This document shows, one piece after another, positions 2,982-58,014 of a DNA stretch of 64,000 bases. The notes under the pieces were generated by a model. The model was not told where the DNA came from. It made no database searches and saw only the letters and a program-made list of their open reading frames with translations. Numbering within the stretch: position 1 is the stretch's first letter; each line of letters starts with the position of its first letter. Source of the stretch: Pseudomonas hamedanensis (lineage in GTDB: Bacteria; Pseudomonadota; Gammaproteobacteria; Pseudomonadales; Pseudomonadaceae); contig NZ_CP077091.1 in the NCBI RefSeq assembly GCF_014268595.2, positions 4,880,001 to 4,944,000 of the forward strand, written 5' to 3'. Both the position numbers and the translations under genes were made by a program.

Positions 2982-3911
2982 TCAGCCACCGCAGGACTCG
3001 CGGATAAACCCATCCACCTCAGCCGCCCCCGGCGCAGTCGCCGGCCCCCAGCGCGTCACGGCCAGCGCCGCCGCGGCATTCGCCCGCCGCGCCGCTTCCG
3101 GTGCATCCAGCCCTCGTGCCAATCCCGCTATAAACACCCCGGCATGAGCATCGCCAGCCCCGTTACTGTCCACCGCGTGCACGGCAAAACCCGGCACGTG
3201 GCGACGCTCGCCGGCCTGATGAATCCAGCAGCCTTGCGGCCCGTCGCGCACCACCATCAGCACGTTGGCCGGCAGATGCCCGGCGAGACGATCCAGCGCC
3301 ACAGCGATGTCCTCGGCACCGGTAAAACGCAGCGCCTCGACGCTGTTGCTGGTCCACACATCGATGCGCGGCAGCAGCGCCTGCATCAGCGGCGAATCCG
3401 GCGATTGCACCAACGGCCCGGGATCGAATACCACGTGAACCGTTGCCGGCAATGCCAGCGTCCAGTCGAGCAAGGCCTGGGCCTTGCCGGCGTGGAGCAA
3501 GCTGTAACCGCTGAGATAAACGTAGTCGCCGGCCTCGGCAGCGACGCTGTTCAGATCCTCCTCGGTGACCTCGCCTTCTGCGCCGATGTACGAAATGAAA
3601 CTGCGCTCGGCCGACGCATCGGTCAGCGCCACACACAGGCCGGTATCGCGCAGCGCCGGTTTACGGATGCCGATGCGAATGCCTTCGGCGTTCATCGCCT
3701 GGCGCGCCAGGTCGCCGAAACGCCCGCTGCCGTGGCGCCCCAGATAAACCACCGGCAAGCCATTGCGCGCCGCCGCCGCCATCACATTGAACCCGCCACC
3801 CGCTTCGAATCCGGCCGACTGCGCCAGTACATCACCGCCGATTTGCGGCAGTTTTTCCACGGCCATGACCAGGTCGATGATGACCTGGCCGGTGTGCAAC
3901 AGCTTAGGCAT
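2982..3911 (-). CDS. PfkB family carbohydrate kinase (YegV-like)
   Basis: The 309-residue protein is a ribokinase/PfkB-fold sugar or nucleoside kinase. Visible motifs are the substrate-side GGGFNV at 38-43 and the C-terminal signature NGAGDAHAG with catalytic base D254. Length is normal. The start at 3911 is set by GAGAA five bases upstream; it overlaps the end of the permease gene by 8 bp, so the two are translationally coupled. Its neighbours (permease, ADP-ribosylglycohydrolase family, GntR) correspond to the E. coli yegTUVW set, where yegV is the kinase. I infer phosphorylation of a ribose-containing compound or its sugar product; the exact substrate is unknown. Confidence 0.85.
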   Translation of the reverse strand: MPKLLHTGQVIIDLVMAVEKLPQIGGDVLAQSAGFEAGGGFNVMAAAARNGLPVVYLGRHGSGRFGDLARQAMNAEGIRIGIRKPALRDTGLCVALTDASAERSFISYIGAEGEVTEEDLNSVAAEAGDYVYLSGYSLLHAGKAQALLDWTLALPATVHVVFDPGPLVQSPDSPLMQALLPRIDVWTSNSVEALRFTGAEDIAVALDRLAGHLPANVLMVVRDGPQGCWIHQAGERRHVPGFAVHAVDSNGAGDAHAGVFIAGLARGLDAPEAARRANAAAALAVTRWGPATAPGAAEVDGFIRESCGG

Positions 3912-5370
3912 GGGCATTCTCGGTTGGCGCGGCGCGGCGATCCTTCGCCCCGCCGAGGAGGAAGTAAATGCCACCGGCCACAACGAAGGTCACGATCCAG
4001 CCGAGGCCGTTATGGCCCAGCCACGAGTCGGACAGAAAGCCCTTGAACCAGACGTTCTCGGCGGTGGTGCCGATGGTGGTGAAGCTGAACCCCAGCACGA
4101 TGGCAATGGCCCAGGCGCCGAATGCACGCCACTCGATGCCACCGCTGTACCAGTAGGCGCTGCGAGGACTGACGTCGAGCAGGTCTTGCGGACTGTAGTA
4201 ATGACGGTGAATCAGATCGACCACGAAGATCCCGACCCATGCGGTGATCGGCACGGCCAACAGGGAAATGAAGGTGATGAACGGGCCGTAAAAGCTGTCA
4301 GCGATCAGCATGAAGTAGATCGAACCGGCGAAGATCGCGACAATGTCGACCACCACTGCGTAGACGCGCTTGACCTTGAGGCCAAGGGTCAGCGTGGTCA
4401 GACCGGCCGAGTACACCGACAGGTTGTTCGACAGCAGCAGGCCGCCGAACGCGGTGATCAGATACGGCACGGCCATCCACGTCGGCAACATGTCGCGGAT
4501 GGCCACGATCGGGTCAGTCGCTGACGCCAGGTCGTTGTTGCCCACCGAGAGCAAGCCGCCGAGGGTGATCAGCAGCACCAGCGGAATGCCTGCGCCGAAC
4601 GCTGCCGACGCCACCAGCCGCACGGCTTTGACGCTGCGGTGCTGATAGCGCGACATGTCCGCGCCGGCATTGGCCCAGCCGATCCCGGTGCCGGCGGCCA
4701 TGGTGCCGATGCCGATGATCATCGCGCTCAGCGGCGCCGGCGTGGCGTTGAACACTGCGCTCCAGTCGATGGTTGCGCAGAGAAAACCGCCGACCAGAAT
4801 GTTCAGCGCGCCGAACACGTAGGTCGCCCATTTCTGGATTACCAGCAAGGTCGCGTGGCCAAGGCCGGACACCGCCAAGGTCAGCAGCACGAAAATCGCG
4901 ATGGAGAGCAGTGTCAGCAACGGCGCGCTTTTGGCCTCCACCGGCGAGCCGAACAGCATGGAACACAGCGACAGCAGCACGAACGCCGCCGTGGTGGTGT
5001 TGACGGTTTCCCAGCCCAGCCGCGACATCAGCGAGACCAGTGTCGGGCCGATGTTGCCGCGTACCCCGAAGATCGCGCGGGACAGCGTCAGGCTTGGTGC
5101 GCGGCCACGACGGCCGGCGATGGAGATGATCCCGACCACGGCAAACGAACCGGCCGCGCCGAGAATGGCGACGATGATCGCCTGCCAGATCGCCAGACCG
5201 CGAAACGCCACCAGCGTCGCGCCCAGCGGCAAGCCGAGAATTGAAATATTGGCGGCGAACCAGACCCAGAACAGCTGCAGCGGATGGCCGTTGCACTCGG
5301 CTTCCGGCACGGGCTCGATGCCGCGGGTTTCCAGTTGCCCGACGCTTTGCCCGGCGGTTGTTGAACTCAT
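3904..5370 (-). CDS. NCS1 family purine/cytosine-type permease
   Basis: The 488-residue integral membrane protein has about twelve hydrophobic segments and the look of CodB-type NCS1 transporters: an N-terminal cytoplasmic stretch, then FWVWFAANISILGLPLGATL, a GRRGRAPSLTLSRAIFGVRG segment between early helices and the intramembrane stretch GWANAGADMSRYQ. NCS1 proteins import nucleobases, nucleosides, hydantoins or related compounds with Na+ or H+. The start is fixed by AGGAG seven bases before ATG at 5370. In E. coli the equivalent cluster position is held by YegT, a nucleoside transporter of another family. That supports a nucleoside-like substrate. Confidence 0.88.
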   Translation of the reverse strand: MSSTTAGQSVGQLETRGIEPVPEAECNGHPLQLFWVWFAANISILGLPLGATLVAFRGLAIWQAIIVAILGAAGSFAVVGIISIAGRRGRAPSLTLSRAIFGVRGNIGPTLVSLMSRLGWETVNTTTAAFVLLSLCSMLFGSPVEAKSAPLLTLLSIAIFVLLTLAVSGLGHATLLVIQKWATYVFGALNILVGGFLCATIDWSAVFNATPAPLSAMIIGIGTMAAGTGIGWANAGADMSRYQHRSVKAVRLVASAAFGAGIPLVLLITLGGLLSVGNNDLASATDPIVAIRDMLPTWMAVPYLITAFGGLLLSNNLSVYSAGLTTLTLGLKVKRVYAVVVDIVAIFAGSIYFMLIADSFYGPFITFISLLAVPITAWVGIFVVDLIHRHYYSPQDLLDVSPRSAYWYSGGIEWRAFGAWAIAIVLGFSFTTIGTTAENVWFKGFLSDSWLGHNGLGWIVTFVVAGGIYFLLGGAKDRRAAPTENAHA

Positions 5371-54612: not shown

Positions 54613-55611
54613 TCAAAGCAATCCCTCACTCTCAGGCAACTCATACGCCACAGCCGCGTTGCTCCCGCTAACCGATTTCCCAGGCTTGCCCAACGTCGGC
54701 TCCTTCTCCAGACACTCCACCAGATAATCAATAAACACCCGCAACTTCGGTGGCAAATAACGCGTCGGCGAATGCAGCAACCACAACCCGCCGTGGTAAG
54801 AGGCAAGGAACGTCCAGTCCGGCAACACCTGCACAATCAGCTTCTGCTCCAACGCATAACGCGCCGTGAAATACGGCAAACTGCCAATCCCGATATGCTG
54901 CAACACCGCCCCCAACCGCACGCCCGTATGATTGGCGGCATATCGCCCGCGCACGCCGACCGTCACCGCCTTGCTGCCCTTCTTGAATTTCCAGCGCGCA
55001 TCGCTCGGCGTTTCGCCCAGATAAATGCAACTGTGGTTGAGCAAATCGTGAGGATGCGTCGGCGTACCGTGTTCGGCCAGATATTGCGGCGTAGCGCAAA
55101 GCAAATGGTCGATTGTCAGCAACTGCCGCCCCACCAGACCGGCTGGGGGGCGATCGGTTATGCGAATCGCCAGGTCGACATGATCGTCAATCAAATCGAC
55201 CTCGCGATCTTCCAGCAATAATTCCACATCCACTTTGGGGTAACGCCGCAGAAACTCCGGCATGTGCGGATGCACCACAAACCGCCCCACCGCTTTCGGC
55301 ACACTGACGCGCACCAGGCCCTCCGCTTCGTGGGTGAACTGGCCACTGATTTCCATCACCGAACGGGCCGCGCTGACCATCTCCCGGCAGCGCTTGAACA
55401 CCTCTTCCCCGCCGTCACTCAAGCGCAGTTTGCGCGTGGTGCGCTGCAGCAAGCGGGTGGCCAGCGCTTTTTCCAGACGCGAAATACTGCGGCTCACCGC
55501 CGAGGGCGACGAGCCCATCTGCCGAGCCGCTTCCGAAAAACTGCCGGTCTCGACCACCTTGACGAAAATCGCCATTTCACCCAGCAGTGGCAGCGGTAGA
55601 TTGATGCTCAC
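54613..55611 (-). CDS. LysR family transcriptional regulator
   Basis: The 332-residue protein has the N-terminal LysR winged helix (MAIFVKVVETGSFSEAARQM, SSPSAVSRSISRLEKALATR) and a substrate-binding-like effector domain. The group is that of single-activator LTTRs with LLQRTTRKLRLSDGGEEV. The start is GTG at 55611 behind AGGA; TTG at 55620 is also open. It is transcribed divergently from the AlaX-oxygenase-LysE operon with a 90-bp gap, so it most likely controls that operon. Confidence 0.9.
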   Translation of the reverse strand: MSINLPLPLLGEMAIFVKVVETGSFSEAARQMGSSPSAVSRSISRLEKALATRLLQRTTRKLRLSDGGEEVFKRCREMVSAARSVMEISGQFTHEAEGLVRVSVPKAVGRFVVHPHMPEFLRRYPKVDVELLLEDREVDLIDDHVDLAIRITDRPPAGLVGRQLLTIDHLLCATPQYLAEHGTPTHPHDLLNHSCIYLGETPSDARWKFKKGSKAVTVGVRGRYAANHTGVRLGAVLQHIGIGSLPYFTARYALEQKLIVQVLPDWTFLASYHGGLWLLHSPTRYLPPKLRVFIDYLVECLEKEPTLGKPGKSVSGSNAAVAYELPESEGLL

Positions 55612-55701
55612 AACGCACAAGTCCTTTGATGTTTGAACGGATTATCACGTTATTGCACGATTCATATAATAAAAATAGAAACTTCAATCAGGGCATGGAA
55701 T

Positions 55702-56328
55702 ATGACGCTTCGCCTTTTTTTCCATAGCGATGACCTCAAGGCGAATGTCGAAGTCCTCGACTGCACACCCTACGAGAACGAATTCGCCGTAGTGCTGCGC
55801 GCCACCTTGTTTCATCCCCAGGGTGGCGGCCAGCCTTACGACACGGGCTGGATCGGTGATGCCGAAGTGCTGCGTGTGGTTCAGGATCCCGAGCGAATCA
55901 TTCATTACGTCGATCGGCCGGTGAGCCTTGGCATGACGCAGATCCGTGTCGACCAGGAGCGCCGTCGTTATAACGCCCGCATGCATTCAGCGGGGCATTT
56001 GATCGGTCACTTCATTCAGGCCATGGGCTGGACGCCGGTCAAGGCACACCACTGGCCAGACGAAGGCCGCGTCCAGTTCAAACCGGGCGATGCCGCGCAA
56101 GAAGTACAGGCGCCAGCCGTCCAGCACGGCATCGAGCAGTGGATCGAACACGATCTGCCGCGCCTGACCTCGCTGCGCGAAGGCGCGCGGGAAATCAGTT
56201 TTGGAGAACTGCCGGCCTACGGCTGTGGCGGCACTCATGTACGCAGCCTGAAGGAATTGGGCACAGTCACGATCGCATCCCTTTCACAGAAGAAGGGCAC
56301 GTTGTCCGTTCACTACAGCGTGGATTGA
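55702..56328 (+). CDS. Freestanding alanyl-tRNA editing protein, AlaX type
   Basis: The 208-residue protein is the AlaRS-type editing domain alone. It has the N-terminal FHPQGGGQPYDTGWI (38-51), the zinc pair H95/H99 in MHSAGHLIGHF and the second pair C175/H179 in GCGGTHVR. Such proteins hydrolyse wrongly charged aminoacyl-tRNA(Ala), usually Ser or Gly; relatives act on other tRNAs. Placement with an amino-acid-type oxygenase and an amino-acid exporter is unusual and suggests it clears a non-standard amino acid. The start at 55702 is supported by the conserved N-terminus. Confidence 0.88.
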   Translation: MTLRLFFHSDDLKANVEVLDCTPYENEFAVVLRATLFHPQGGGQPYDTGWIGDAEVLRVVQDPERIIHYVDRPVSLGMTQIRVDQERRRYNARMHSAGHLIGHFIQAMGWTPVKAHHWPDEGRVQFKPGDAAQEVQAPAVQHGIEQWIEHDLPRLTSLREGAREISFGELPAYGCGGTHVRSLKELGTVTIASLSQKKGTLSVHYSVD

Positions 56329-56417
56329 GCTTTTCGGGCGCTGCCGCCGCGCAGCGTCCGACGCCGGGGGAGCCGCATTCGAAGGTTCCGTTGACTATCG
56401 ATAGATGGACCTAAACC

Positions 56418-57188
56418 ATGATGCTAGACGTCGAGCGTCTCGATGAGACGTGCATAAAAAAACTGGCCAACGAAGAAGTCCTCGCCATCCGCCTCAAAAG
56501 CTTTTTACCCGAGCCGCTGGCGATCGAGCTCGGCGACAAGATTCTCGCGCCGGGTTTTGAAGGCTACATCAACGCGCCGAGTATCGGCCGTATCGGCATG
56601 GCATTTTATGAGGCGGAAAACCAACCGTTACTGATCGAGGATTACTTCGAACGCGCCACCCGCAACATCGCCGAATTGCGCAATCGCTGCGCGCCCTACT
56701 CTTCCCCGGTCGACACCCTGCGCTGCATGCTTGATGAATCGTGGCCGGCCGGTGCCCACCTGGAAAACCTCTACGGTCGCAAGATGTATGTCGGCCTGTC
56801 CCGCGTAGTCAAACCCGGCGTGTGCTTTCTGGCCCACCACGACATCTTCGCCAAAGACGCACCGGACAGCTTCCAGGCGCGCAGCCTCGAAGCGCAGTTC
56901 GCCTGCAACGTTTACCTGAACATGCCCACCGAGGGCGGCGCCTTGCAGATGTGGGAAGACGACATCACCCCGGACCAGTTCGATGAAATGCGTGGCGACA
57001 GCTACGGCATCGAGCCGTCGCTGCTGGGGCCGCCCGCCCTCGAAGTGCGACCGCAGCCCGGCGATTTCATCATGTTCAATTCGCGCCGTATGCACTCGGT
57101 CACCCCAGGCGTGGCGGACCCGCGCTTGAGCCTGTCCTTCTTTGTCGGCTATCGCGGCAATGCTTCCCCTCTGACTTTCTGGAGCTGA
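56418..57188 (+). CDS. 2-oxoglutarate/Fe(II)-dependent oxygenase-like protein
   Basis: The 256-residue protein has a double-stranded beta-helix iron site: H140-x-D142 in FLAHHDIFAKDAPD, distal H226 in GDFIMFNSRRMHSV and a 2-oxoglutarate-binding Arg (R236 in PRLSLSFFVGY). The order and spacing are those of free-amino-acid or prolyl-type hydroxylases. The precise substrate is unknown. It follows the AlaX gene by 89 bp and precedes the LysE gene by one base, so one transcript is likely. A halogenase role is excluded by the Asp in HxD. Confidence 0.78.
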   Translation: MMLDVERLDETCIKKLANEEVLAIRLKSFLPEPLAIELGDKILAPGFEGYINAPSIGRIGMAFYEAENQPLLIEDYFERATRNIAELRNRCAPYSSPVDTLRCMLDESWPAGAHLENLYGRKMYVGLSRVVKPGVCFLAHHDIFAKDAPDSFQARSLEAQFACNVYLNMPTEGGALQMWEDDITPDQFDEMRGDSYGIEPSLLGPPALEVRPQPGDFIMFNSRRMHSVTPGVADPRLSLSFFVGYRGNASPLTFWS

Positions 57189-57189
57189 C

Positions 57190-57828
57190 ATGTTTTCCAA
57201 CTACCTGGGCGAGTTTCTGGCGCTGGCAACTATTCACTTTCTTGCTGTGGTCGCACCCGGCCCGGACTTCGCCGTGACCATTCGCCAGAGCGTTCGCTTC
57301 GGCCGATTGGTGGGAATTTGCACCGCGTTGGGTATCGGTGCGGGGATTTCTGTGCACGTGTTGTATACCTTGCTCGGTGTCGGTGCCCTGATGCACACCA
57401 CGCCTTGGCTGCTGACGGTGGCCAAAGTGGTCGGCGGCGCATACATCCTTTATCTGGGCATCAGCCTGATCCGCAGCAAACCGAAGAGCAGCATCGAAGG
57501 CGAAAAAAACACTGACGAGCCGCTGGTCGAACAGTCGTTGTTCAAAGCATTCAGCACCGGTTTTCTGACCAACGCGACCAACCCCAAGGCCACGCTGTTT
57601 TTCCTCGCAATCTTCACCACGATCATCAGCGCCAGCACACCGCTGCAGATCCAGGCGTTCTATGGTTTGTGGATGTGTTTCGTCAACGCGCTGTGGTTCG
57701 TGATCGTCGCGCTGTTTTTTTCCAGCAATCAAGTGCGTTTGCTGTTCATGCGCCTCGGACATTGGTTCGAGCGCAGCATGGGCGTCATTCTGATCCTGTT
57801 TGCCGGACGCCTGATGCTATCGATGTAA
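57190..57828 (+). CDS. LysE/RhtB family amino acid exporter
   Basis: The 212-residue inner-membrane protein has about six transmembrane segments and the family marks FLAVVAPGPDFAVTIRQSVR near the start and GFLTNATNPKATLFFLAIF near residue 125. Members export lysine, threonine, homoserine, cysteine pathway products or other amino acids. Its start lies two bases after the oxygenase stop, so the two are translationally coupled. A terminator follows. It would release the oxygenase product. Confidence 0.9.
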   Translation: MFSNYLGEFLALATIHFLAVVAPGPDFAVTIRQSVRFGRLVGICTALGIGAGISVHVLYTLLGVGALMHTTPWLLTVAKVVGGAYILYLGISLIRSKPKSSIEGEKNTDEPLVEQSLFKAFSTGFLTNATNPKATLFFLAIFTTIISASTPLQIQAFYGLWMCFVNALWFVIVALFFSSNQVRLLFMRLGHWFERSMGVILILFAGRLMLSM

Positions 57829-57835
57829 CTCACAC

Positions 57836-57870
57836 AAAAAAGTCCCGGCCATCACCCGCCGGGACTTTTC
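57836..57870 (+). terminator. Terminator of the AlaX-oxygenase-LysE operon
   Basis: AAAAAGTCCCGGC and GCCGGGACTTTT form a perfect stem with an 8-nt loop and T tract, 8 bp after the lysE-type stop. Confidence 0.93.
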
Positions 57871-58014
57871 ATTTGTGCGCCTCTTTTGCATTTCTGTGCG
57901 ACAGATCAAATTTCCGGCTCCCTCTTCACGCCCTCGCGGTGTTAGGTTGCAAAATGTTTCTGTCGCAAGCGTCAGAAATTTTCCTCCAACCTTTAGCAAA
58001 GGAATGCCTGTTCC

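Follow-up and report, generated by a model that had tools for sequence, protein, structure and literature searches.

An AlaX deacylase gene linked to a 2-oxoglutarate oxygenase and a LysE exporter in Pseudomonas: a candidate cassette for making and tolerating a modified amino acid

Described systems and the window locus

Streptomyces cattleya makes fluorothreonine, and its protein FthB, a standalone deacylase of a tRNA charged with a toxic amino acid, belongs to a context of production and has a partner exporter, FthC. FthB is the fluorothreonyl-tRNA deacylase, a relative of ProXp-ST1 that acts on tRNA(Thr) (McMurry and Chang 2017, via the available part of PMC11295145). A linkage of the same type, in which a deacylase gene is joined to those of a modifying enzyme and an exporter, is found in a 64,000-nucleotide stretch of Pseudomonas hamedanensis DNA (contig NZ_CP077091.1, positions 4,880,001 to 4,944,000; this whole stretch is called the window below). 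Here, however, the deacylase is of the AlaX type and its neighbour is a 2-oxoglutarate (2OG)/Fe(II) oxygenase, followed by a LysE/RhtB-type amino-acid exporter and controlled, it would seem, by a divergent LysR-type regulator. Judged from its sequence, this cassette on balance probably produces a modified amino acid, exports it and tolerates it.

Other described systems share part of this set. The Hil/IDO operons combine a LysR gene with a PF13640 dioxygenase whose substrate is a free amino acid and, in certain cases, with an RhtA exporter, and their authors propose production with self-detoxification (available part of PMC3684760). They resemble the cassette in their regulator, their amino-acid dioxygenase and, in some operons, their exporter, but possess HilB, HilC and HilP in addition, while no tRNA-editing protein was found among them (the word 'tRNA' occurs 0 times in the available text of PMC3684760). 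CtdA, the canavanyl-tRNA(Arg) deacylase of Pseudomonas canavaninivorans, is raised by canavanine and is, like the AlaX of the window, a standalone editing protein, inducible and directed against an amino-acid antimetabolite; unlike it, CtdA is built on a B3/4 domain, acts on tRNA(Arg) and is tied to the degradation of a plant toxin (PMC10018355, in its available part). As for AlaX proteins, the accessible parts of PMC11295145 and PMC3158927 describe them as housekeeping proofreaders, AlaXp clearing Ser- and Gly-tRNA(Ala), and a function in immunity would be a new role, if true. Trans-editing of a toxic amino acid (FthB) and LysR-dioxygenase-exporter operons for antimetabolites (Hil) are known already, as far as these sources go; what appears to be new is the partnership with AlaX, which recurs with two 2OG families and three exporter families, together with a three-state slot in Pseudomonas. 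The first-pass annotation, made from the sequence, knew of no described system with this set: we found AlaX as an oxygenase/exporter partner in this role in none of the open-licence papers searched, whereas the trans-editing logic has the precedents just named.

The four genes lie on a Pseudomonas chromosome, each in an open reading frame free of internal stops. The regulator (54613-55620, minus strand; Pfam PF00126 and PF03466) is divergent, as had been proposed, from AlaX (55702-56328, plus strand, 208 amino acids from an ATG, the list of reading frames having begun it at an upstream TTG, 55633), from the oxygenase (56418-57188, plus strand, 256 amino acids) and from LysE (57190-57828, plus strand, 212 amino acids; PF01810). 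LysR and AlaX are 81 base pairs (bp) apart, AlaX and the oxygenase 89 bp, and the exporter, said earlier to start two bases past the oxygenase stop, is in fact separated from it by a single base. A motif check recovers the zinc ligands first assigned to AlaX (H95, H99, C175, H179) and the H140, D142, H226 and R236 assigned to the oxygenase.

Linkage of AlaX with the oxygenase and the exporter

We counted 145 loci, 115 with a close oxygenase (at least 55% identical to that of the window) and 30 with distant homologues, and a distance-based recount agreed. The close loci, mostly from Pseudomonas, include near-duplicates and some genomes more than once (e.g. L081 and L082). In every one of them AlaX (gap 15-110 bp) and LysE (gap 4-333 bp, the largest gaps belonging to frameshifted copies) are same-strand neighbours of the oxygenase, and a LysR match stands on the opposite strand in 112. 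Such an identical gene order in all close relatives inspected (115/115) means that the arrangement is more than chance. The oxygenase profile matched 80 of 298 Pseudomonas species, the match being of the close type in 62. Among 199 species searched for both proteins, which we read as the first 199 of the 298, AlaX was matched in 89: it lies 606-878 bp, start to start, from the close oxygenase in 43/43 oxygenase genomes, and is present anywhere in 46 of the 156 genomes without a close oxygenase, a comparison that ignores kinship.

Outside Pseudomonas, oxygenase profile matches are rare (4/369 in the class sample, 4/398 in the phylum, 3/293 in the order and 2/247 in the order of genome G936; the samples overlap, and each of the first three counts the window genome among its matches). 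The order AlaX-oxygenase-LysE recurs nevertheless in G263, G936 and G994, and in Photobacterium as frameshifted copies. A reversed pair, oxygenase then AlaX separated by 4 to 57 bp, occurs in G296, G1083, G1318, Caballeronia and Undibacterium, with 26-34% aligned oxygenase identity; G1318 adds a LysE, and Embleya, from another phylum, has oxygenase-AlaX-MFS. The first-pass annotation had suggested looking for adjacency of the three families in other genomes; linkage of AlaX with the oxygenase extends to other classes and another phylum, and these diverged loci together with Embleya rule out a Pseudomonas-only accident. G004 has an oxygenase profile match and no AlaX.

A mobilizable plasmid of Acinetobacter johnsonii, of 6362 bp, lists as its genes only mobC and the trio (its gene table can be incomplete); we count this near-sole listed cargo in favour of production. 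The plasmid record NZ_CP068209.1 (L086, A. johnsonii) has a counterpart in NZ_CP068212.1 (Achromobacter xylosoxidans), both 6362 bp long and alike in their oxygenase and AlaX matches; that two records named as different species hold plasmids of equal length reflects either transfer or cross-contamination. At L161 the oxygenase-AlaX pair shares its contig with a phage-integrase-family recombinase and a GmrSD-type restriction gene (927-1913 and 3051-5000), and the contig is probably a mobile island.

On the oxygenase tree (L249 taken in the right frame, the fragments L094 and L095 left out), a single clade of the 11 AlaX-linked oxygenases is rejected (approximately unbiased test, p-AU 3e-5), and six changes of AlaX state are needed, three of them forced by well-supported branches, on a tree that has long branches. 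It is therefore probable that the pairing arose, or was lost, on more than one occasion.

Chlorinase clusters and loci without the oxygenase

SyrB2 and CytC3 are carrier-bound chlorinases, 2OG enzymes that modify an amino acid. Two clusters of this type are like the cassette in carrying AlaX and an exporter, although they possess an adenylation domain, a carrier and a thioesterase, and although their 2OG enzyme is of a different family (PF05721). On a Salmonella enterica plasmid (L251:2212-7291) we find an adenylation domain, a carrier protein, a SyrB2-like chlorinase (E 1e-125 to SyrB2, with HxA), AlaX, an EamA exporter and a thioesterase; G936 (L260:276-5356) shows the same order, with a chlorinase at 78%, an AlaX at 56%, an EamA at 76% and a thioesterase-like piece, its AMP-binding gene being in pieces and its thioesterase short in the reading-frame calls. 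Both are apparent pathways to a free chlorinated amino acid, and they favour the making, exporting and proofreading of a modified amino acid over pure detoxification. The Salmonella cluster was also sought in E. coli, a lead dropped as no near match was found there.

G936 holds a window-type cassette separately from its chlorinase cluster, and its two AlaX proteins, 31% identical, are distributed one to each cluster, which is hard to square with generic proofreading. This bears on the proposal that AlaX, though inducible, does no more than proofread Ser- and Gly-tRNA(Ala), the oxygenase and LysE having joined its operon for the use of a promoter while remaining functionally separate. The activity reported for AlaXp (PMC11295145, available part) agrees with it, as does the retention of the zinc ligands by AlaX in loci that lack the oxygenase; the linkage recurs, however, in other classes and another phylum, and with opposite gene order, and two AlaX are kept in G936 for two different amino-acid-modifying clusters, so that we hold this explanation to be improbable.

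The oxygenase-less loci deserve a discussion of their own. Among 46 oxygenase-less AlaX genomes, 45 were analysed at the locus (G419, with AlaX in pieces, was left out). AlaX lies in the PA2817-LysR slot in 42 of the 45, and LysE is present in seven, five of these in that slot, as against 115/115 loci with a close oxygenase. The slot has three states: AlaX, AlaX with LysE, and AlaX with both oxygenase and LysE. On the AlaX tree (64 rows; L235-L237, with broken or partial AlaX, omitted) the oxygenase-less L193, L194, L195 and L196-L198 are interspersed among oxygenase-bearing loci, L193 grouping with L246 (support 100/99), which means that the oxygenase came or went several times while AlaX stayed; gain and loss are alike compatible with this tree, which cannot tell them apart. 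The AlaX proteins of the shared slot (L199-L210, L213-L234; L211 and L212, located elsewhere, are left out) are 55-62% identical to that of the window and their LysR neighbours 78-90%, hence AlaX changes much faster than the regulator.

Detoxification of an outside compound is the main rival explanation for these observations. LysR would sense an external amino-acid analogue, for example from a plant, AlaX would clear it from tRNA, LysE would export it, and the oxygenase, as an addition to the set, would inactivate it. Small-plasmid cargo, as in Acinetobacter, is typical of resistance, and a regulator that induces an enzyme by its substrate is a simple device. Sets of LysR-AlaX or LysR-AlaX-LysE that lack the oxygenase fill the same slot in 42 of the 45 loci, and LysR-AlaX in Klebsiella and Chimaeribacter, like LysR-AlaX-LysE in Acinetobacter, has an operator block similar to that of the window. 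The canavanine-raised deacylase of P. canavaninivorans provides a precedent (PMC10018355, available part). Yet an enzyme that detoxified by oxidation would make LysE less necessary, whereas LysE accompanies the close oxygenase in 115/115 loci, and the chlorinase-AlaX-exporter clusters, with their adenylation and thioesterase genes, look biosynthetic. We consider detoxification unlikely, if worth keeping in mind.

Several observations count against production with self-tolerance. The commonest state of the oxygenase-less loci (38/45) is LysR-AlaX with neither oxygenase nor LysE, and since LysR-AlaX alone has a similar operator block, the signal of the regulator need not be the oxygenase product; this sharing of slot and operator block by loci without the oxygenase is the strongest point for AlaX having a value of its own. 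No AlaX match was present in the fetched stretch for 27 of the 30 distant oxygenase homologues (three adjoin AlaX), and four of the six diverged oxygenase-AlaX loci had no LysE match alongside, other exporters not having been sought there. The AlaX label on the oxygenase tree is no more clustered than in shuffles (72/500 as low); this fits repeated gain or loss and implies that kinship within the superfamily is not enough to predict AlaX. A SyrB2-like chlorinase is present in 27 plasmid records, of which that of Salmonella alone is also among the AlaX matches listed (best 20 of 25), so the chlorinase parallel is a minority arrangement.

A broader proposal, to which we give slightly less than even credence, is that AlaX deacylases are a widespread and overlooked immunity family for amino-acid antimetabolites that 2OG enzymes produce. 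A hydroxylase (WelO5/SadA-like) or a chlorinase (SyrB2-like) releasing a free amino acid that can be charged on tRNA could be accompanied by a dedicated AlaX and by an exporter (LysE, MFS or EamA), and LysR-AlaX-only Pseudomonas would be immune non-producers. If this is true, AlaX could serve as a guide to toxic amino acids not yet known, the immunity role would help to explain the patchy, plasmid-borne distribution of AlaX, and about one fifth of the Pseudomonas sampled (62/298) would offer a handle on new amino-acid antimetabolites and hydroxylases. The cassette itself hints that there are toxic amino acids, made together with the means of immunity to them, still to be discovered.

Predicted chemistry and regulation

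The oxygenase scores 37.5 bits against Pfam 2OG-FeII_Oxy_3 (cut-off 27), and H140 and D142 are kept in 186/186 aligned rows, that of the window included. WelO5 carries Gly where the Asp iron ligand would otherwise stand, and HxG/A is a hallmark of WelO5-type halogenases. The window enzyme has the WelO5-type fold (WelO5/SadA fold group; identity 15-20% in structure alignments with WelO5 and SadA) but a hydroxylase-type HxD...H...R set, and HxD points to hydroxylation rather than halogenation; the G166D variant of WelO5 is present among the structure matches. SadA is a C3-hydroxylase of N-substituted amino acids (PMC3665795, available part), and differs in this substrate from what is proposed here. 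Against HilA, the L-isoleucine dioxygenase (NF041274), the score is 20.8 bits, below the curated cut-off of 500. A BesD-type lysine halogenase had been suggested by the size and the 'FWS' end, but no BesD chain is among the sequence or structure (Foldseek and VIA) matches listed, a distant kinship being still possible. A protein hydroxylase was set aside because prolyl hydroxylases ranked far under WelO5 and SadA in the structure comparison, and an origin in phages or viruses because no relative was found in viral contigs and phages. The Streptomyces cattleya match in L094 was similar to no solved chain at E 0.1.

AlaX has as its closest solved structures by sequence the AlaX-type 9iuw (E 9e-15) and 2e1b (AlaX-M; E 6e-14), with a marginal 22.8 bits against Pfam tRNA_SAD, under the cut-off of 24, and 71.2 bits against the AlaXM equivalog NF040865, under the curated 300. 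Its HxxxH and CxxxH zinc ligands and GGGQ are present in 183 of 185 aligned rows (window and near-duplicates included), the exceptions, L087 and L152, being broken copies, and its 208 residues are insufficient for a C-Ala domain. Azetidine-2-carboxylate was set aside as a target, with no evidence for it. LysE, an amino-acid exporter to judge from its family (124.9 bits against PF01810, cut-off 25.6), finds its best curated models in threonine/homoserine exporters, under their cut-offs (TIGR00949: 149.6 versus 183.95 bits).

That the oxygenase product is exported while AlaX removes it from tRNA, as the first-pass annotation had it, is supported in part, by the linkage and the chlorinase-AlaX-exporter parallels; as for the chemistry itself (substrate, product, exported compound, mischarged tRNA and inducer), we infer the following. 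The oxygenase would oxidize a small free amino acid, most probably by hydroxylation, given HxD, and LysE would pump the product out of the cell. We propose that AlaX acts on tRNA charged with this product, hydrolysing it off where an aminoacyl-tRNA synthetase has attached it in error; the synthetase would most likely be the alanyl enzyme, with tRNA-Ala, less likely the threonyl one. LysR would switch the set on, probably by binding the product or a related amino acid. A beta-hydroxylated, serine- or threonine-like product would suit oxygenase, AlaX and exporter alike; this is a guess, based on the C3 hydroxylation by SadA, the clearing of Ser by AlaX and the threonine/homoserine exporters nearest to LysE.

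Distant homologues of the oxygenase adjoin a cyclodipeptide synthase, an AMP-binding gene or a pyridoxal phosphate (PLP) decarboxylase, apparently in assembly pathways. This could mean that the product is a signal, an osmolyte or a precursor instead of a toxin, with AlaX merely preventing accidental misincorporation; but no further enzyme accompanies the trio in the window operon or, in a gene table that can be incomplete, on the Acinetobacter plasmid, and we find this account very improbable.

A second WelO5-like family, the 'group 2' homologues of Pseudomonas (L126-L137, L139; 32-36% identity), shows no AlaX or LysE match and looks like a different use from that of the cassette; in L127 its member adjoins cyclodipeptide-synthase, MFS and luciferase-like genes (Pfam), and L132 and L133 are similar by eye. 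In L141 and L143 the neighbour of a distant homologue is a PLP decarboxylase (by Pfam, on L143).

LysR itself has clear domains (HTH_1 72 bits, LysR_substrate 127.1 bits, Pfam), and in other genera there are five loci where a match of 57-73% identity to it adjoins AlaX, two with and three without the oxygenase. The 81-bp divergent region (55621-55701) holds a TTTGA...GATTATCAC block, which is a candidate LysR operator, a TATAAT-like -10 box at about 55665-55670, and a promoter-like match at 55642-55670 in a pattern scan. A similar block ahead of a -10-like box is common to most of 24 aligned LysR-AlaX intergenic regions, hand-chosen with and without oxygenase from Pseudomonas to Acinetobacter and Chimaeribacter, that of G263 being the most diverged. 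At the other end of the operon, the strong terminator announced by the first-pass annotation was not among the pattern-scan listings, but a terminator-like hairpin at 57833-57877 (plus strand; core GTCCCGGC...GCCGGGAC, then TTTT) folds stably, at -24.9 kcal/mol (z -7.0; 0/200 shuffles as good).

Other neighbours of AlaX may finally be mentioned. On a Cupriavidus plasmid (L148:4001-5168) a RidA-family gene comes after AlaX, a hint that this lineage meets a stress linked to serine or aminoacrylate. A family with no Pfam match at E 0.001 stands beside AlaX in L161:5063-5788, L263:2454-3191 and L264:5024-5761; its members are 36-51% identical between loci, and it is possibly the regulator there.

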